The position numbers and the translations under genes were made by a program. DNA of 5,227 nt. Source: JAUWCW01 sp030609125 [NCBI: Candidatus Rokuibacteriota bacterium]. GTDB lineage: Bacteria; JAUVQV01. Within the stretch, counting starts at the first letter, position 1, and every line of letters starts with the position of its first letter. The notes beneath the pieces were generated by a model. The model had not been told where the DNA came from. It made no database searches and saw nothing but the letters and a program-made list of their open reading frames with translations. The stretch is taken from contig JAUWCW010000172.1 in the NCBI GenBank assembly GCA_030609125.1, positions 1 to 5,227 on the forward strand, in the 5' to 3' direction. Shown here piece by piece: positions 1-5,227 of this stretch.

Positions 1-1544
1 AACCTTTTATGAGACCGAATAAGCTGTTCCGCATTCTCATAGGCCATCACCTCATGCTTGACTGGTATGCTCTGCCCAACAGGAACGGTCCGAAGCTGCG
101 GTGTTTTTTTCCACACCTTGACATCCAGAAGATGGGGCATGTATTCATCCATATCCTTGATCAGTTCAGGGCTGAGATCATTCACGTGGTACTCCCAGAT
201 GCCGATGACGAACTGTGTCGCCATGTACTTGACGGGCCGGTTCTTGCGCGAGAGCCGGAAGAGGAGCCCCTTCTGGGCCATGGAGGCCAGGATCCCGGTG
301 TTGCAGTAAATGACGATCTCCTTGTCCTTGGGAAGCTGGTCGAGGCTGGCCATCAGCATGCTCCGGGGAATGACCTTCGCCCCGGGAAGAACACCGGGGG
401 AAGTTCCCTCTCTCACATCGAGAACGAGCTTGTCCGCGGGAGGGCTGTCGACGATCGTCATGAACTCGCTCGTCCCGATCTGCGTGGGCTTGAGCCTCTT
501 GACGTAGACGATGTCGGTGGGCAGGTCGCCGGTGAGCACCTTGCCCTCAGATTTGTTCCATCCTTTGAGGCCGCCGCGGAGGACCGAGGCGTTCTTGTAG
601 CCCCAGCCACGCACGACCTTGAAGTCCTTCACTTCGGCCTGGCCGTCGGAGTAGAGGATGACGGGAGCGCTCTTCTTGGCGGGGAACCGCTCTTTCGCCC
701 TCGCCAGCTCTCCGCGCGGCAGTGAAACCGCGCCGGGGATGTACCCCGATGCCGCGGCGGCGGGGTCTCTCAGGTCGACGAGGACATAGGCGTCTCCGCC
801 TTTGATCATCCCCTTTATTCCTCCCGCCTCGGAGACCAGGATGCCGGCGTCTTTCTTCCAGGCCGGCATGCCGGCGTGAAAGACCTTGACGTTGGTGTAG
901 CCGAGTTTTCCCGCCTCACGGGCGGCAAAGGGGCTCAGCGTTCAGGTGATTCCCCCGCAGTAGAAGATGACCAGCCTCGACTTGTCCTTGGGAAGCACCT
1001 TGGCGTGTCTCTTCGCGAAGGCGCCGTAGGGGAGGGACCGGGCCCTCGGAATGTGTCCCTGCAGGTAGGGGGCCGGCGGGCGGGCGTCGACGAGGGTGTA
1101 GCCCCCCGCCTTGGGGCCCATAGCGACGAGAGCCTTCACCTCTTCGAGGGAGATGAGCATCTCCTCCGGGACTTTGTAGGGCTGCTTCAGCACCACCTGG
1201 GCGGCGAGAGGCTTCGACTCTTCGCCGGTGTAGGTGATAAGGATCTCCTTGCCCATGGGAATCGCGGCGATCCTCTCGGGGCCGCTGACCTTCTTCCCTT
1301 CCTTGACCTTGATCGCATCGTCGTACTTGACGATCCAGACCACCGGCCCCACCGCGACCTGGAAGGTGTGAAACTTATCGGAGACGCTCTTCATCTTGCC
1401 CCAGATCGTCCCGGGCTTGGCGGTGTGGCACTTCTTGCACCCGCCGACGATGTTCGGCTTGCCCGCCCGGGCGGAACCCGGGTAGGACGCCGCCATCAGC
1501 ATGAACGCCGCCGCGACGGCGACGGTACGAATTGCGATTCTCAT
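1..1544 (-). CDS. Exported selenocysteine-containing multi-domain rhodanese with CXXCH haem motif (partial, runs off left edge)
   Basis: Starts at ATG 1544 behind AAGGA-type SD (spacing about 5 nt). At least 514 residues if the in-frame TGA at 942-944 is read as Sec201; no other in-frame stop to the window edge. Residues 1-27 form a Sec signal peptide (MRIAIRT, hydrophobic core, SARA cleavage site). CKKCH at 36-40 is a c-type haem motif. Rhodanese domain 1 spans about 130-230 (LVDAR at 151-155, GHIP at 163-166, active-site segment YCGGIT-Sec at 195-201, then LGYTNV and GMPAW). Domain 2 spans about 243-330 (LVDLRD at 255-260, YIPGAVSLP at 268-276, GGLKGW at 324-329), but its loop reads YSDGQ, so no catalytic Cys. 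Domain 3 starts near 355 (LVLDVRE at 373-379, YCNTG at 413-417) and looks cut short after residue 421, continuing into a 4Fe-4S-protein-like segment. Likely a periplasmic sulfur/selenium transferase or redox protein; substrate unknown. Last gene of the block inside the window. Confidence 0.85.
3..281 (-). other. C-terminal segment resembling the middle of a 4Fe-4S protein, joined to truncated rhodanese domain 3
   Basis: After YCNTGILAS (413-421) a rhodanese domain should continue with an alpha helix, GY and a final strand. Instead the frame reads MAQKGLLFRL, then QFVIGIWEYHVNDL (444-457), then TPQLRTVPVGQSIPV (481-495). From memory this matches a family of soluble 4Fe-4S proteins with an N-terminal winged-helix part, in which a CICR-type cluster region would come next, outside the window. 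Base composition also shifts: about 48% GC in 1-180 against about 64% in 361-540. This may be a real gene fusion, a recombination scar or an assembly join. No cluster cysteines are visible inside the window. Confidence 0.55.
900..939 (-). promoter_or_regulatory. Bacterial SECIS-like hairpin for Sec insertion
   Basis: Read in the mRNA, the hairpin begins 2 nt after the TGA. The lower stem GCUGAG/CUCGGC (939-934 with 905-900) has six pairs, one of them U-G. Next come a CCCC/A asymmetric bulge, a UUU/AAA helix (929-927 with 909-907) and a G-G mismatch. The apical stem CCGCC/GGCGG (925-921 with 915-911) is closed by the five-base loop CGUGA. The loop starts 21 nt after the TGA and has G as its second base. 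Both match the known bacterial SECIS rules (small apical loop, G among the first two loop bases, about 16-37 nt from UGA). The fold was drawn by hand, not computed. Confidence 0.75.
942..944 (-). other. In-frame TGA read as selenocysteine codon (Sec201)
   Basis: The codon sits at the end of the rhodanese domain 1 active-site loop, YCGGIT-TGA-TLSPFAA. Rhodanese homology continues directly after it in the same frame (LGYTNVKV, GMPAW), so it is not a natural protein end. Cys-containing relatives, as I remember the family, read CGGxTC at this place, which puts Sec on the second Cys. A SECIS-like hairpin follows. Without Sec insertion the product would end at 200 residues inside domain 1. Confidence 0.85.
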
Positions 1545-1564: not shown

Positions 1565-1639
1565 TAGCCCGGAAATTTCATGAGCCATCTGCTGCGAGCG
1601 CGGAGATCACGCAACGAAGTTCATGAAATATCCAGGCTA
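1565..1639 (-). repeat. Long inverted repeat between the small membrane protein and rhodanese genes
   Basis: Two 19-nt arms (1621-1639 and 1565-1583) are complementary except for one T-T mismatch and one G-U pair. They enclose a 37-nt loop that can itself form a 6-bp stem (GTTGCG/CGCAGC). In the mRNA the first arm begins with the TAG stop codon of the upstream gene, and the hairpin ends about 20 nt before the rhodanese start. No U-run follows, so it does not look like an intrinsic terminator. An mRNA stability or processing element, or a differential-expression barrier, is more likely. Confidence 0.7.
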
Positions 1640-1822
1640 GATGAGGGATTTCCGGCCGTCTTCGCCGGCAGACGGGGCGGCGTCGCTGCCCGGGACCTCG
1701 AGGGCCACTTCAGCATGGGCCCTGGCGTCCATGACCGGCCTGAGGCTCCGGCCGATCATGAAGCTCACTACCGAGATGATGACGAGCAGAACGATGCCGA
1801 AACGCAGCTGTAGATCTTTCAC
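1637..1822 (-). CDS. Small single-helix membrane protein, unknown function (61 aa)
   Basis: Begins with GTG at 1822, chosen because a strong SD (AAGGAGG) sits 5 nt upstream and the gene begins 23 nt after the transporter stop. The product starts VKDLQLRFG and has one hydrophobic segment at about residues 8-24 (FGIVLLVIISVVSFMIG), followed by a basic stretch (RSLRP) and a polar, acidic and Ala-rich tail that ends in KSLI. I do not recognise a family. Its place between the YeeE/YedE transporter and the exported rhodanese suggests an accessory subunit or membrane adaptor for one of them, which is inference from position only. The frame is open far upstream inside the transporter gene, but that extension is a low-complexity shadow without membrane or domain character. 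Confidence 0.75.
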   Translation of the reverse strand: MKDLQLRFGIVLLVIISVVSFMIGRSLRPVMDARAHAEVALEVPGSDAAPSAGEDGRKSLI

Positions 1823-1845: not shown

Positions 1846-2952
1846 CTACAGGTCCATGTTGTTCATGGGCCTGATGATTTTGAAGTAGACCATCGTCCAG
1901 TTGCCGAGGATGATGGCGCTGATGGCGACCATGCTGGAGAGCGCCATCGTCGAGAAACCGGTGATGCCGTGACCCAGGTTGCATCCTCCGGCGATGACCG
2001 CTCCGATTCCCATGATAATGCTGCCGAAGAGGACCGTCAGGAATTCCTTCGCCGGCGGTATCTTCCACCTGAACTCCTTGAGGCCGTAGGCGCTGAGAAA
2101 GGCCCCCAGGGGGACGGCGAAGATGAAAAAGACGCCCCAGGTGCCCTTGAAGATGCCGAAGAAGCTGAACTCGGGAAAGGGTGAATAGGAGCTCTTGTAG
2201 AGGACGCTGGAAAAGAACTCCCTGATGGGCGTGGTGATGGCGAGACCCCTGGGAATGCCGCCGAAATAGGAGGACACCCACCACGCCACCGAGGTCAGCA
2301 CGCCGATCAGGAACCCCGTCAGCGCCCACGAGTAGCCATTGTTCTGCTTGCCTATGCGGGGCTTGCCCTTCACGATGAAAGTCAGAACCACGGCGGAGAA
2401 GACCGCGATGGTCAGCCATTTGACCAGCGGCCCGCTGCCGAAGATGTCCCAGAGGGCGGGGTTGGTCTTCCCGAAGACGTCGACGTTGAGGCTCTTGAGG
2501 TACTTGTGGGCCGGGCTCAGCATGCCGCTCTGGGTCATGACCACACCGAAGAAGAACCCGATGGTGGCAACGATGGCCGCCACCTGCCCCTCTCCCATCC
2601 GATAGACGATGCCGCTGGCGCACCCTCCGGCGAGGACGATTCCCATGCCGAAGAGAAAGCCTCCGATGATGTGGGCGGCGGGCATGAAGTTCTGCCGCAG
2701 CAGGCCGTAGGTGACGGCTTTGCCCGTCTCGGGATCGATCGTGGTGAGAAGTCTCATCTCCTCCAGGAAGTTCGCGCCGACGATGGCGACCACGACGGCC
2801 AGAAGATAGGCCCGGAACATGGTCAGGTCTTTCATGAAGATGATGTCCCTGAAGGCGGAGTTGAGGCAGAACCGCCCTCTCTGAAGGACGAACCCCAGCG
2901 CCCCACCGAGGGCTATGGCGGACAGGCCGGAGGCAAGATTACTGTGTAGCAT
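1846..2952 (-). CDS. YeeE/YedE-family membrane transporter, probable thiosulfate/sulfur-species uptake (368 aa)
   Basis: Integral membrane protein with about nine hydrophobic stretches spread over the chain, for example about 44-62, 93-110, 124-141, 178-194, 207-226, 272-290 and 304-323. It carries the three family signature loops, each with a cysteine: RGRFCLNSAFRD (C29), AGGCASGIVYRMGEGQ (C111) and AGGCNLGHGITG (C324). In the characterised thiosulfate carrier of this family (YeeE/TsuA), three such cysteines lie along the conducting path, so sulfur-species import is the best guess. It lacks the NMGxCxACFxRD-type N-terminal motif I associate with the selenium-linked YedE subfamily. Start ATG 2952 is preferred over an upstream ATG at 3024, since GGAGGG lies 6-7 nt ahead and the protein then begins just before the first helix. 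The start overlaps the preceding USP stop by 14 nt, which implies translational coupling. Confidence 0.88.
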   Translation of the reverse strand: MLHSNLASGLSAIALGGALGFVLQRGRFCLNSAFRDIIFMKDLTMFRAYLLAVVVAIVGANFLEEMRLLTTIDPETGKAVTYGLLRQNFMPAAHIIGGFLFGMGIVLAGGCASGIVYRMGEGQVAAIVATIGFFFGVVMTQSGMLSPAHKYLKSLNVDVFGKTNPALWDIFGSGPLVKWLTIAVFSAVVLTFIVKGKPRIGKQNNGYSWALTGFLIGVLTSVAWWVSSYFGGIPRGLAITTPIREFFSSVLYKSSYSPFPEFSFFGIFKGTWGVFFIFAVPLGAFLSAYGLKEFRWKIPPAKEFLTVLFGSIIMGIGAVIAGGCNLGHGITGFSTMALSSMVAISAIILGNWTMVYFKIIRPMNNMDL

Positions 2953-3451
2953 ATGCTTCCCTCCAGCCGTAGACGTGCTTTTCGCAGCCGTCGTTCTTCG
3001 CCACGAGCACGGGCACCTCGGCACGTATCTCGACTTCGTTGGTGGCGCAGCCGCTGATGAGCCTGTGGAGCCCCCTCTTTCCGCCGCAGCCCATGATGAT
3101 CAGGTCCACCGCCTCTTCCCTGGCGACCTGGAGAATGACGTCGGAGACGATGCCCTCCCGGACCATGGTGGTGACCTTCGCCGGGCCGCTGCCTTCGAGC
3201 TTCCTGCTGAAGAAGCCGAGGATCTTCTCGGCCTTCTCCTCCAGCGCCGCCTGGTGCCTTGTTCCCTGCATCGATTCCTTCAGGGTCCCGAGCTCCGCCT
3301 CGCCGAGCATGTCGATCATCAGCGAACTCCCCTGCAGCCTCGGCACGTGGAGCAGGATCACCTCCTCCGCCGGGGTGATGGCGCTGTGAAAGAGGGCCAG
3401 CGCCTCTTTCGTCCCTTTCGTTTCGTCTACCGGAATGAGTACCTTTTTCAT
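2939..3451 (-). CDS. Universal stress protein, third of three tandem paralogues (170 aa)
   Basis: A single UspA domain starting MKKVLIPVDE, the usual first beta strand with its acidic nucleotide-contacting end. It shows EVILLHV (30-36), LIIMG (117-121) and the C-terminal strand VPVLVAK (146-152). The ATP-binding motif G-2x-G-9x-G-(S/T) appears as G121, G124, G134, but Cys135 replaces Ser/Thr, so nucleotide binding may be altered. It shares with the two neighbours a long MIDMLGEAEL-TLKES insert-like signature (45-60). The tail YGWREAYATQ resembles the start of the membrane tail in the first paralogue (YSWKDACAAF) but stops before any helix. SD AGGGGGA lies just before ATG 3451, 19 nt after the previous gene. 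Probably a cytoplasmic stress-signalling protein. Confidence 0.93.
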   Translation of the reverse strand: MKKVLIPVDETKGTKEALALFHSAITPAEEVILLHVPRLQGSSLMIDMLGEAELGTLKESMQGTRHQAALEEKAEKILGFFSRKLEGSGPAKVTTMVREGIVSDVILQVAREEAVDLIIMGCGGKRGLHRLISGCATNEVEIRAEVPVLVAKNDGCEKHVYGWREAYATQ

Positions 3452-3470: not shown

Positions 3471-4004
3471 TCAGCTCAGTTCTTCCTGGAGCACCAGGCG
3501 TTCCGGCACGACTCTGTCCGCGACGTCTTCCCTGCCGCTCCCCGGGCGCCTGGCCAGCATGACCGGCACCCTGGCGTTCTTTTCGATGTCCTTGCTCACG
3601 CGTCCGGCGACGAGCCGGTCCAGCCCTTCTCTCCTGTTGAAGCCCATGATGATGAACTCCGCCTCTTCTTCGTCGGCCACCTTCAGGATCTCTTCCGAGG
3701 GAATGCCGAATCTCGACACGGTCTTCACCGGGACCAGCCCGTTCTTCTGGATCTCCCTGCGGTAGTAGTCGAGAATCCTCTTCGACTCCTGCTCCAGCTT
3801 TTCCATGTGCTCCGTGCCCTGGAGCGATTCCTTCAGGGTGGACAGTTCCGCCTCACCCAGCATGTCGATCATCATCGACCGGCCTTCGAGACCCTGCACA
3901 TTGAGGACCACTACTTCTTCCGGCGGACGGACGAGATTCCTGAAGACCGAGAACACCGCCGTGGAGTCCTTCGTATCGTCAACCGCTATCAGCACCTTTT
4001 TCAT
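3471..4004 (-). CDS. Universal stress protein, second of three tandem paralogues, degenerate ATP motif (177 aa)
   Basis: A UspA-type domain beginning MKKVLIAVDD, with EVVVLNV (30-36), MIDMLGEAELSTLKES (45-60), FIIMG (117-121) and VPVMLAR (146-152). It aligns with both neighbours without gaps over the first 150 residues. At the nucleotide-binding loop the canonical G-2x-G-9x-G-(S/T) is broken: G121 and G134 remain, but the second Gly is Arg124 and the Ser/Thr is Arg135. This argues for a non-ATP-binding (UspA-like) member, perhaps a heterodimer partner of its paralogues. The tail after residue 152 is charged and has no membrane helix. Strong SD AAGGAGG lies 5 nt before ATG 4004; the gene follows the first paralogue by 44 nt. 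Confidence 0.93.
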   Translation of the reverse strand: MKKVLIAVDDTKDSTAVFSVFRNLVRPPEEVVVLNVQGLEGRSMMIDMLGEAELSTLKESLQGTEHMEKLEQESKRILDYYRREIQKNGLVPVKTVSRFGIPSEEILKVADEEEAEFIIMGFNRREGLDRLVAGRVSKDIEKNARVPVMLARRPGSGREDVADRVVPERLVLQEELS

Positions 4005-4048: not shown

Positions 4049-4633
4049 TCAGGGCGCGAGGACCCCCTGCTGCATGGCGAATCCCAGCAGCAGGAGTCCG
4101 AACACGACTATCGTCAGAGCCGAGAAGGCGGCGCAGGCGTCTTTCCAGCTGTAGGGCTCCTCGCAGACCGGCCTCCGCCTGGCGGTCATCACGGGAATCC
4201 CCGCCTTCTTTTCCACCTCCGCCGCCACGCTCCCCGTGATGAGCCGGTCGAGGCTTTTCTTGCCGCTCTTTCCAAGAATGATGAGGTCAACCCCTTCCTC
4301 CCGGGCCACCCTGAGGATCTCGTCCGCCGGCGGGCCTTCGGCAAGAAGCGTCCTCACCGGGACGCCCATCATCGCCTCCAGTTTCTTCCGGTACCAGGCG
4401 AGGATCTTTTCCGCCTTCCGGTCGAGTCCCCTCTGGTGCTCCGTACCGCGAAGCGATTCCTTCAGGGTCGACATCTCGGCGTCGCCGAGCATGTCGATCA
4501 TGAGTGACCTGCCCTCCAGTCTCTGCACGTGCAGGAGGAGCACCTCCCCCGGCTCGCGGACGAGAGTGGCGCATGTGGAGAGCACTTCGCGGGAAGTCCG
4601 GCTGTCATCAACGGCGATCATTATCTTCTTCAT
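4049..4633 (-). CDS. Universal stress protein with C-terminal membrane anchor, first of three tandem paralogues (194 aa)
   Basis: The start is set at ATG 4633, where the chain reads MKKIMIAVDD like its paralogues and a GAGGG SD lies 8 nt upstream. An ATG at 4687 would add 18 residues with no family match and lies almost on the predicted transcription start. The domain has EVLLLHV (30-36), MIDMLGDAEMSTLKES (45-60), LIILG (117-121) and IPVMTAR (146-152). The ATP motif G121-2x-G124-9x-G134-Ser135 is complete, so this is the paralogue most likely to bind ATP. Unusually, a hydrophobic helix follows the domain (about 169-188, FSALTIVVFGLLLLGFAM), which would tether the protein to the inner membrane with the USP domain in the cytoplasm. 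It is promoter-proximal in the block and probably sigma-54 controlled. Confidence 0.93.
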   Translation of the reverse strand: MKKIMIAVDDSRTSREVLSTCATLVREPGEVLLLHVQRLEGRSLMIDMLGDAEMSTLKESLRGTEHQRGLDRKAEKILAWYRKKLEAMMGVPVRTLLAEGPPADEILRVAREEGVDLIILGKSGKKSLDRLITGSVAAEVEKKAGIPVMTARRRPVCEEPYSWKDACAAFSALTIVVFGLLLLGFAMQQGVLAP

Positions 4634-4703: not shown

Positions 4704-4719
4704 ATCAACTTCCGTGCCA
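4704..4719 (-). promoter_or_regulatory. Sigma-54 (-24/-12) promoter for the minus-strand block
   Basis: Read on the minus strand the site is TGGCACG-GAAG-TTGAT. The -24 part matches the consensus TGGCACG fully, the spacing is right, and the -12 part is TTGA instead of TTGC, one mismatch at an important base. The predicted transcript start is near 4692, giving a 5' leader of about 60 nt before the first USP gene. An IHF site and a palindrome upstream support it. Confidence 0.65.
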
Positions 4720-4848: not shown

Positions 4849-5227
4849 ATGCTGAAAAGGTTCCTGGAAGACCCCGGGTTTCTGATGAACATCTTCGAGA
4901 CCATGAGGGAAGGGCTGATGGTCATGGACGAAGACGGGATCATACAGTTCTTCAACAAGGCCGCGGAGGAAATCACGGGCTACGGCAGGGAAGAGGTGCT
5001 CGGGCAGCCCTGCATGATGCTCGATTCCGACACCTGCGTCGTGCTCACCCATGATGGCCGGCAGAAGAAGTGCGACCTCTTCAAACAGGGCACCATCACC
5101 AACAAGAGATGCCGCATACGAGCCAAGGGCGGGCAGGCGGTCTACCTCCTGAAGAACGCCGTCGTCCTCAAGGATGAGAATGGCGAGATCGTGGGGGGCG
5201 TGGAGACCATAACGGACATTACCTCCC
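4849..5227 (+). CDS. PAS-domain regulator, probably a sigma-54-dependent activator (N-terminal 126 aa, cut by right edge)
   Basis: Open from ATG 4849 to the window end. The chain shows a PAS domain: FLMNIFETMREGLMVMDEDG (11-30), IIQFFNKAAEEITGY (31-45), EEVLGQPC (48-55), then the C-terminal strands VYLLKNAVVLKDENGEIVGG (98-117) and ETITDIT (119-125). I recognise the overall pattern from PAS-AAA-Fis activators of sigma-54 RNA polymerase, but the AAA and DNA-binding parts are outside the window, so a histidine kinase is the main alternative. Four cysteines (C55, C63, C75, C88) sit in the PAS core and could bind a metal or iron-sulfur cluster or sense redox state. No clear SD precedes the ATG, so translation may be weak. 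Divergence from a block with a sigma-54 promoter makes it the probable controller of that block. Confidence 0.8.
   Translation, partial: MLKRFLEDPGFLMNIFETMREGLMVMDEDGIIQFFNKAAEEITGYGREEVLGQPCMMLDSDTCVVLTHDGRQKKCDLFKQGTITNKRCRIRAKGGQAVYLLKNAVVLKDENGEIVGGVETITDITS

Follow-up and report, generated by a model that had tools for sequence, protein, structure and literature searches.

A very probable selenoprotein with three rhodanese domains and an in-frame TGA codon in a Candidatus Rokuibacteriota genome

The locus and its genes

The window analysed in this work is the complete stretch of 5,227 nucleotides of contig JAUWCW010000172.1, assigned to a Candidatus Rokuibacteriota bacterium. Its minus strand contains, from position 1544 to 3, a reading frame of 514 codons that has neither TAA nor TAG and is interrupted only by one TGA, codon 201 (Table 1). 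An earlier note, based on the sequence alone, had claimed that this TGA conceals a rhodanese selenoprotein, with 313 open codons after it and rhodanese motifs on both sides. Translation gives the same number of codons and the same numbering for Cys196 and Sec201, and the chance that 313 codons contain neither TAA nor TAG was estimated from base composition at about 3e-5. The absence of these stops is real; however, the frame passes beyond the contig end, no frame end lies inside the window, and part of the 313 codons may be foreign to the gene because the tail matches a 4Fe-4S protein. Pfam detects three rhodanese stretches (PF00581, 120.3 bits) with the TGA inside the first of them, and the residues YCGGIT stand directly before the TGA, both in agreement with the previous description. 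As had also been predicted for automatic annotation, a mechanical ORF caller cuts the gene into an ORF of 200 aa and a second ORF.

Table 1. Features of the window, with positions counted from its first nucleotide.
Feature	Position	Strand	Evidence or remark
C-terminal tail, 4Fe-4S protein-like	1..290	-	57% identity to G002:C215; possible assembly misjoin
Open frame of triple-rhodanese selenoprotein (very probable), TGA as Sec	3..1544	-	Translation; three PF00581 stretches, 120.3 bits
Rhodanese domain 3 with Cys414 (CNTG)	261..452	-	Cys in 46/47 rows
Rhodanese domain 2, active-site Cys absent	552..797	-	Cys in 0/47 rows at aligned place
Rhodanese domain 1, holds Cys196 and Sec201	852..1136	-	55.6 bits, 1 TGA inside
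SECIS-like hairpin, 5-bp stem and 5-nt loop (CGUGA)	911..925	-	+17 to +31 after TGA; comparative
TGA at codon 201, very probably a Sec codon	942..944	-	Translation; family alignment
Codon of Cys196, rhodanese active-site Cys	957..959	-	Cys in 33/33 TGA rows, 44/47 overall
CKKCH, possible haem c motif	1425..1439	-	CxxCH in 22/47 family rows
Probable signal peptide, residues 1-27	1464..1544	-	Sequence, judged by eye
Small ORF (61 aa), upstream neighbour	1637..1822	-	No Pfam match
Sulf_transp transporter, TsuA/YeeE type	1846..2952	-	Passes Pfam cut-off; NCBIfam TsuA 206 vs 400 bits, below
Universal stress protein	2939..3451	-	End overlaps transporter start
Universal stress protein	3471..4004	-	Ends in TGA stop
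Universal stress protein	4049..4633	-	Ends in TGA stop
σ54-type -24/-12 site (TGGCACGGAAGTTG), head of presumed operon	4706..4719	-	Exact match; predicted
Start of divergent gene, PAS domain with four cysteines	4849..5226	+	Rest beyond contig

Active-site cysteines are present in domain 1 (Cys196) and domain 3 (Cys414) and lacking in domain 2, and Sec201 would be located five residues C-terminal of Cys196 within domain 1. The CKKCH motif follows the putative signal peptide, and the protein is probably exported. A PDB sequence search retrieved five distant rhodanese sequences (best E 2.6e-13) and a plasmid search retrieved 43 records, every one below 60% identity. A structure prediction based on two sequences did not reach usable quality (pLDDT 47.6, pTM 0.28).

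The C-terminal end of the frame shows a seam that the earlier note had not anticipated. Residues ~419-512 (nt 9-290) share 57% identity with a 4Fe-4S protein of a Desulfobacterales MAG (G002, see below) and differ from the C-terminus of the rhodanese family itself; the switch falls within domain 3, ~290 bases from the contig end. An assembly misjoin is considered more likely than a true fusion, since the latter would cost domain 3 its last part. When the genome of the window was searched with the 4Fe-4S protein, the hits outside the window were ferredoxin-type stretches only (five places, best E 5e-10). The region around the TGA lies ~650 bases from the seam and is unaffected by it.

Upstream of the rhodanese gene, the coding sequences for a transporter and three universal stress proteins are found on the same strand. 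One of the stress-protein genes shares its last 14 bases (2939-2952, minus strand) with the beginning of the transporter gene, and this overlap suggests that the two may be translated in a coupled manner within one operon. With a threshold of E 1e-5 and flanks of varying length, a relative of the transporter was detected in one (L189) and a relative of the stress proteins in another (L177) of the 44 other family loci. Taken by itself, the σ54-type site in front of the presumed operon is weak, as shuffled sequences give a mean of 0.93 matches with up to one mismatch. A longer version of the pattern occurs seven times within 300 bases upstream of a family gene across 45 loci, versus 0.23 occurrences expected from the remainder of those loci, and six of these seven loci have a divergent PAS regulator. 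Ten of the other 44 loci have a relative of the PAS domain, with the regulator placed upstream on the opposite strand in eight (L182 and L199 differ), and the four cysteines are conserved in nine of these ten regulators, L199 being the exception. The σ54-activator query also matched places with weaker scores (E ~1e-50; L160, L176, and L181), which may correspond to unrelated activators. The divergent PAS gene of the window probably encodes a σ54 activator, and its four-Cys domain is a possible sensor of sulfur, redox state or metal. A regulon comprising the part of the family associated with the PAS regulator is plausible.

Family alignment, SECIS-like hairpin and selenocysteine machinery

In the phylum of the window the gene is present in both genomes examined (that of the window and G001), with one TGA in each. 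A scan of genome contigs produced 70 loci, of which a single one, L033 from the Desulfobacterales MAG G002, is related over most of its length (42% identity, E 1e-94) and carries a TGA at the identical codon; the next-best locus scored E 6e-11. This MAG has a second copy of the family, likewise with a TGA. With G002 taken as the centre, a four-sequence profile was then used to search 395 sampled genomes of that phylum and detected the family in 39 of them, at 45 places, which together with the window and G001 make up an alignment of 47 rows.

At the Sec column, these rows have TGA in 33 cases, TGC in seven, TGT in three, Gly in two (both with a shifted gap) and Asp in one, and the remaining row is truncated before the column. 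The proposal that Sec replaces a Cys is thus borne out by 10 of the 14 aligned rows without TGA, and the relatives with CGGxTC that the earlier note mentioned do exist, as five of the ten Cys rows carry the exact motif (L131, L135, L138, L140, and L148). Three residues after Sec, Ser is found in 29 of the 33 TGA rows and Thr in the other four. A quick tree of 44 rows, built without L150, L151, and L152, requires five or more changes between Sec and Cys, gains and losses being counted alike, and sister pairs with one form each were found in L126/L131 and L149/L148. In two members, L144 and L146, the active-site loop is two residues shorter (VGGCLSP and IGGCLSP) and has a Cys close to the Sec place; L146 additionally lacks the active-site Cys.

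Downstream of the TGA, a SECIS-like hairpin was evaluated by comparison among family members, after removal of the duplicates L121 and L136 and leaving out the four rows with Gly, Asp or a truncation at the Sec column. At least four of the five pairs can form in 31/31 distinct TGA genes (all five in 23) versus 0/10 Cys genes. The TGA genes average 4.74 pairs compared to 3.47 in 500 synonymous-codon shuffles (sd 0.13, maximum 3.81), a comparison that is somewhat favourable because the stem was placed with the help of folds and a placement scan on these very sequences, whereas the Cys genes average 2.50 pairs versus 2.55 in their shuffles; the contrast with the Cys genes is the stronger point. 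The second stem pair appears as C-G in 23 genes, G-C in four, U-A in three and U-G in one, and therefore this pair covaries. Position 2 of the loop is G in every one of the 31 TGA genes vs 2/10 Cys genes. Folding of the window alone yields the identical stem, with a stability that is not unusual (z -0.89 and -1.02 in two folds), so the hairpin with its apical-loop G is recognized comparatively, the window by itself not being significant. Mean folding z-scores in 45-nt windows were -0.96 for the 33 TGA rows, 0.06 for the seven TGC rows and -1.17 for the three TGT rows; as these scores fail to split TGA from TGT, only the stem comparison separates Sec from Cys genes. A search of the window against Rfam gave one match, below the gathering score (L25 leader, E 0.6).

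The earlier note had named the sel genes of the same genome as a check on its claim, and selA (593 bits), directly followed by selB (314 bits, covering model positions 2-399 of 581), as well as selD (363 bits) and tRNA-Sec (67.9 bits, anticodon tca according to ARAGORN) were all detected above the cut-offs of their models. Moreover, selA exceeds its cut-off in 40/40 family genomes tested (the 39 mentioned above and G001), including those with the Cys form. The selD gene of the window's genome (L018 1501-2418, G000:C159) has an in-frame TGA of its own, after TCG and near the gene start, and because of this it is probably a selenoprotein gene itself.

The codon counts at the Sec column, the hairpin, the decoding genes and the repeated Sec/Cys changes on the tree together make it almost certain that codon 201 is decoded as selenocysteine, the rare 21st amino acid, and that the gene encodes a selenoprotein; the SelA/SelB/SelD/tRNA-Sec system of this genome would carry out the decoding, guided by the hairpin right after the TGA. 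The possibility that the TGA is an ordinary stop, ending a 200-residue protein that is followed by a second gene or marking a pseudogene, agrees with the way in which the mechanical ORF caller splits the gene, but it is very improbable considering that 33 of the 47 genes keep frame and domain order beyond the TGA and ten others have Cys, that the hairpin is kept in TGA genes only and that the Sec machinery is present in the genome; the codon counts at this column and the TGA-only hairpin led to its rejection. Even less probable is that the codon reflects a sequencing error or a general reassignment of TGA in this organism. The assembly is indeed fragmented (376 contigs); however, an error is not credible because the TGA at codon 201 recurs in 33 of the 47 genes, and a changed code is argued against, and was rejected, as two neighbouring genes use TGA as their stop, selB and tRNA-Sec being moreover retained in the genome.

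Relationship to known rhodanese selenoproteins

The accessible parts of two publications (PMC13188914 and PMC9312934) list several forms of rhodanese selenoproteins, in agreement with the statement of the earlier note that such proteins had been reported. Form 1, exemplified by WP_010941598.1 and credited in the accessible text of PMC13188914 to Zhang and Gladyshev 2005, has a PF00581 domain and the motif UxxS. The window protein shares with it the rhodanese domain (120.3 bits), one Sec and this motif, in the version U-T-L-S, a likeness drawn from the described motif only. Since UxxS forms are already in the literature (PMC13188914, accessible parts), the window gene adds one more member to the known rhodanese selenoproteins.

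The Cys196/Sec201 pair of the window aligns with the UxxxxU pair of TsoB (NF045694), a rhodanese/DsbD fusion-like selenoprotein. The window protein scores 53.1 bits against the TsoB cut-off of 805, has one Sec and three rhodanese domains and lacks the DsbD part, and for these reasons its assignment as TsoB was rejected. The MAG G002 encodes a TsoB member (L106 1083-2825, G002:C273; 888 bits) with its two Sec at the positions of Cys196 and Sec201; this protein joins the rhodanese to parts resembling DsbD and thioredoxin in one fusion. In another form, rhodanese_LYCAU (NF041203, form 3, CxU), a rhodanese-related protein has Sec near the active-site Cys, as in the window, but two residues after it rather than five (CxxxxU). 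Assignment to this form was rejected as well (41.2 bits vs a cut-off of 115, in addition to the different motif), and a true LYCAU member with the motif CAU is encoded elsewhere in the window's genome (L004 813-1232, minus strand, G000:C373; 136 vs 115 bits). No NCBIfam model passes its cut-off for the window protein or for three relatives.

A further likeness, by description and size, is with ExtH (GSU2940) of Geobacter sulfurreducens, a rhodanese-like protein of 49.0 kDa (PMC5877670, accessible text) and thus approximately of the same size as the window family. The accessible text of PMC5877670 and PMC6148476 does not term ExtH a selenoprotein, unlike the window protein; it does report that without extI the reduction of selenite and tellurite is impaired. 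In G002:C75, an ExtKL-family selenocytochrome (L104 1-1092 and 1462-2796; 481 bits) is encoded directly upstream of the second family gene with TGA, so that two selenoprotein genes are neighbours there.

In the open-access literature, with subscription papers mostly outside the scope of the search, 'CxxxxU' or 'UxxxxU' were found only in PMC13188914, for TsoB, and among the matches listed no title combined a rhodanese selenoprotein with σ54. What would be new in the window, judging from the alignments, is the correspondence of Cys196/Sec201 to the UxxxxU of TsoB and, in some relatives, the σ54-type site with the divergent four-Cys regulator.

A proposed Cys–Sec mechanism and its significance

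The earlier note had suggested that Sec tunes sulfur or selenium transfer, or redox cycling, and any such role would depend on the active site. In rhodanese folds, the persulfide is held by a short loop that comes right after the active-site Cys. Sec201 would sit at the end of this loop, and it is likely that the gene both encodes a selenoprotein and acts through the Cys–Sec pair of domain 1. TsoB, which has Sec at both places and is fused to a reductant, suggests a redox cycle between Cys and Sec. In such a cycle, thiosulfate, polysulfide or a comparable donor would convert Cys196 into a persulfide; attack by the selenol of Sec201 would then set sulfide free and join the two residues in a Cys–Sec bond, which a periplasmic reductant would reopen. 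Domain 1 would accordingly be a reductase of sulfane sulfur (or selenium) instead of a plain transferase, domain 3, which keeps the ordinary rhodanese Cys, could pass sulfur on, and domain 2 would be structural. No dedicated reductant is encoded within the window. Drawn by analogy, the reduction of sulfane sulfur through a Cys–Sec bond can be proposed tentatively, with confidence somewhat short of even.

The main rival to this reductase reading is a selenoprotein with another chemistry, in which Sec201 would carry sulfur or selenium to an acceptor, making the protein a faster transferase or a selenium carrier, perhaps one that deals with selenite in the way suggested for the ext cluster of Geobacter. 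This cluster, rhodanese-like ExtH included, has been linked to the reduction of both selenite and tellurite (PMC5877670 and PMC6148476, accessible parts), an ExtKL-like cytochrome is encoded directly upstream of the family gene in two of the 45 loci (L159 and L193), and that of G002 passes the ExtKL model (481 bits vs a cut-off of 250). On the other hand, the window of 5.2 kb lacks any cytochrome neighbour, Cys196 is kept in all 33 TGA rows, as would be expected of a pair rather than of a selenol acting alone, and TsoB has two Sec at the matching places together with a fused reductant. A carrier role is thus possible though rather unlikely. Returning to the reductase reading, its fullest version, in which the CxxxxU pair would form a self-resolving periplasmic reductase of sulfane sulfur or selenium, of a redox class common to TsoB and partly under σ54 control through the four-Cys PAS activator, is speculative and, taken as a whole, a little less likely still.

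Altogether, routine annotation very probably makes the real protein look shorter and chemically less reactive than it is, and the family is probably mis-annotated often, since the ORF caller splits the gene and no NCBIfam model passes its cut-off. The closely related Sec and Cys forms that occur in Sec-decoding genomes (L126/L131 and L149/L148) make the contribution of Sec to a rhodanese directly testable, and the match with TsoB offers a concrete Cys–Sec redox mechanism that can be put to the test.
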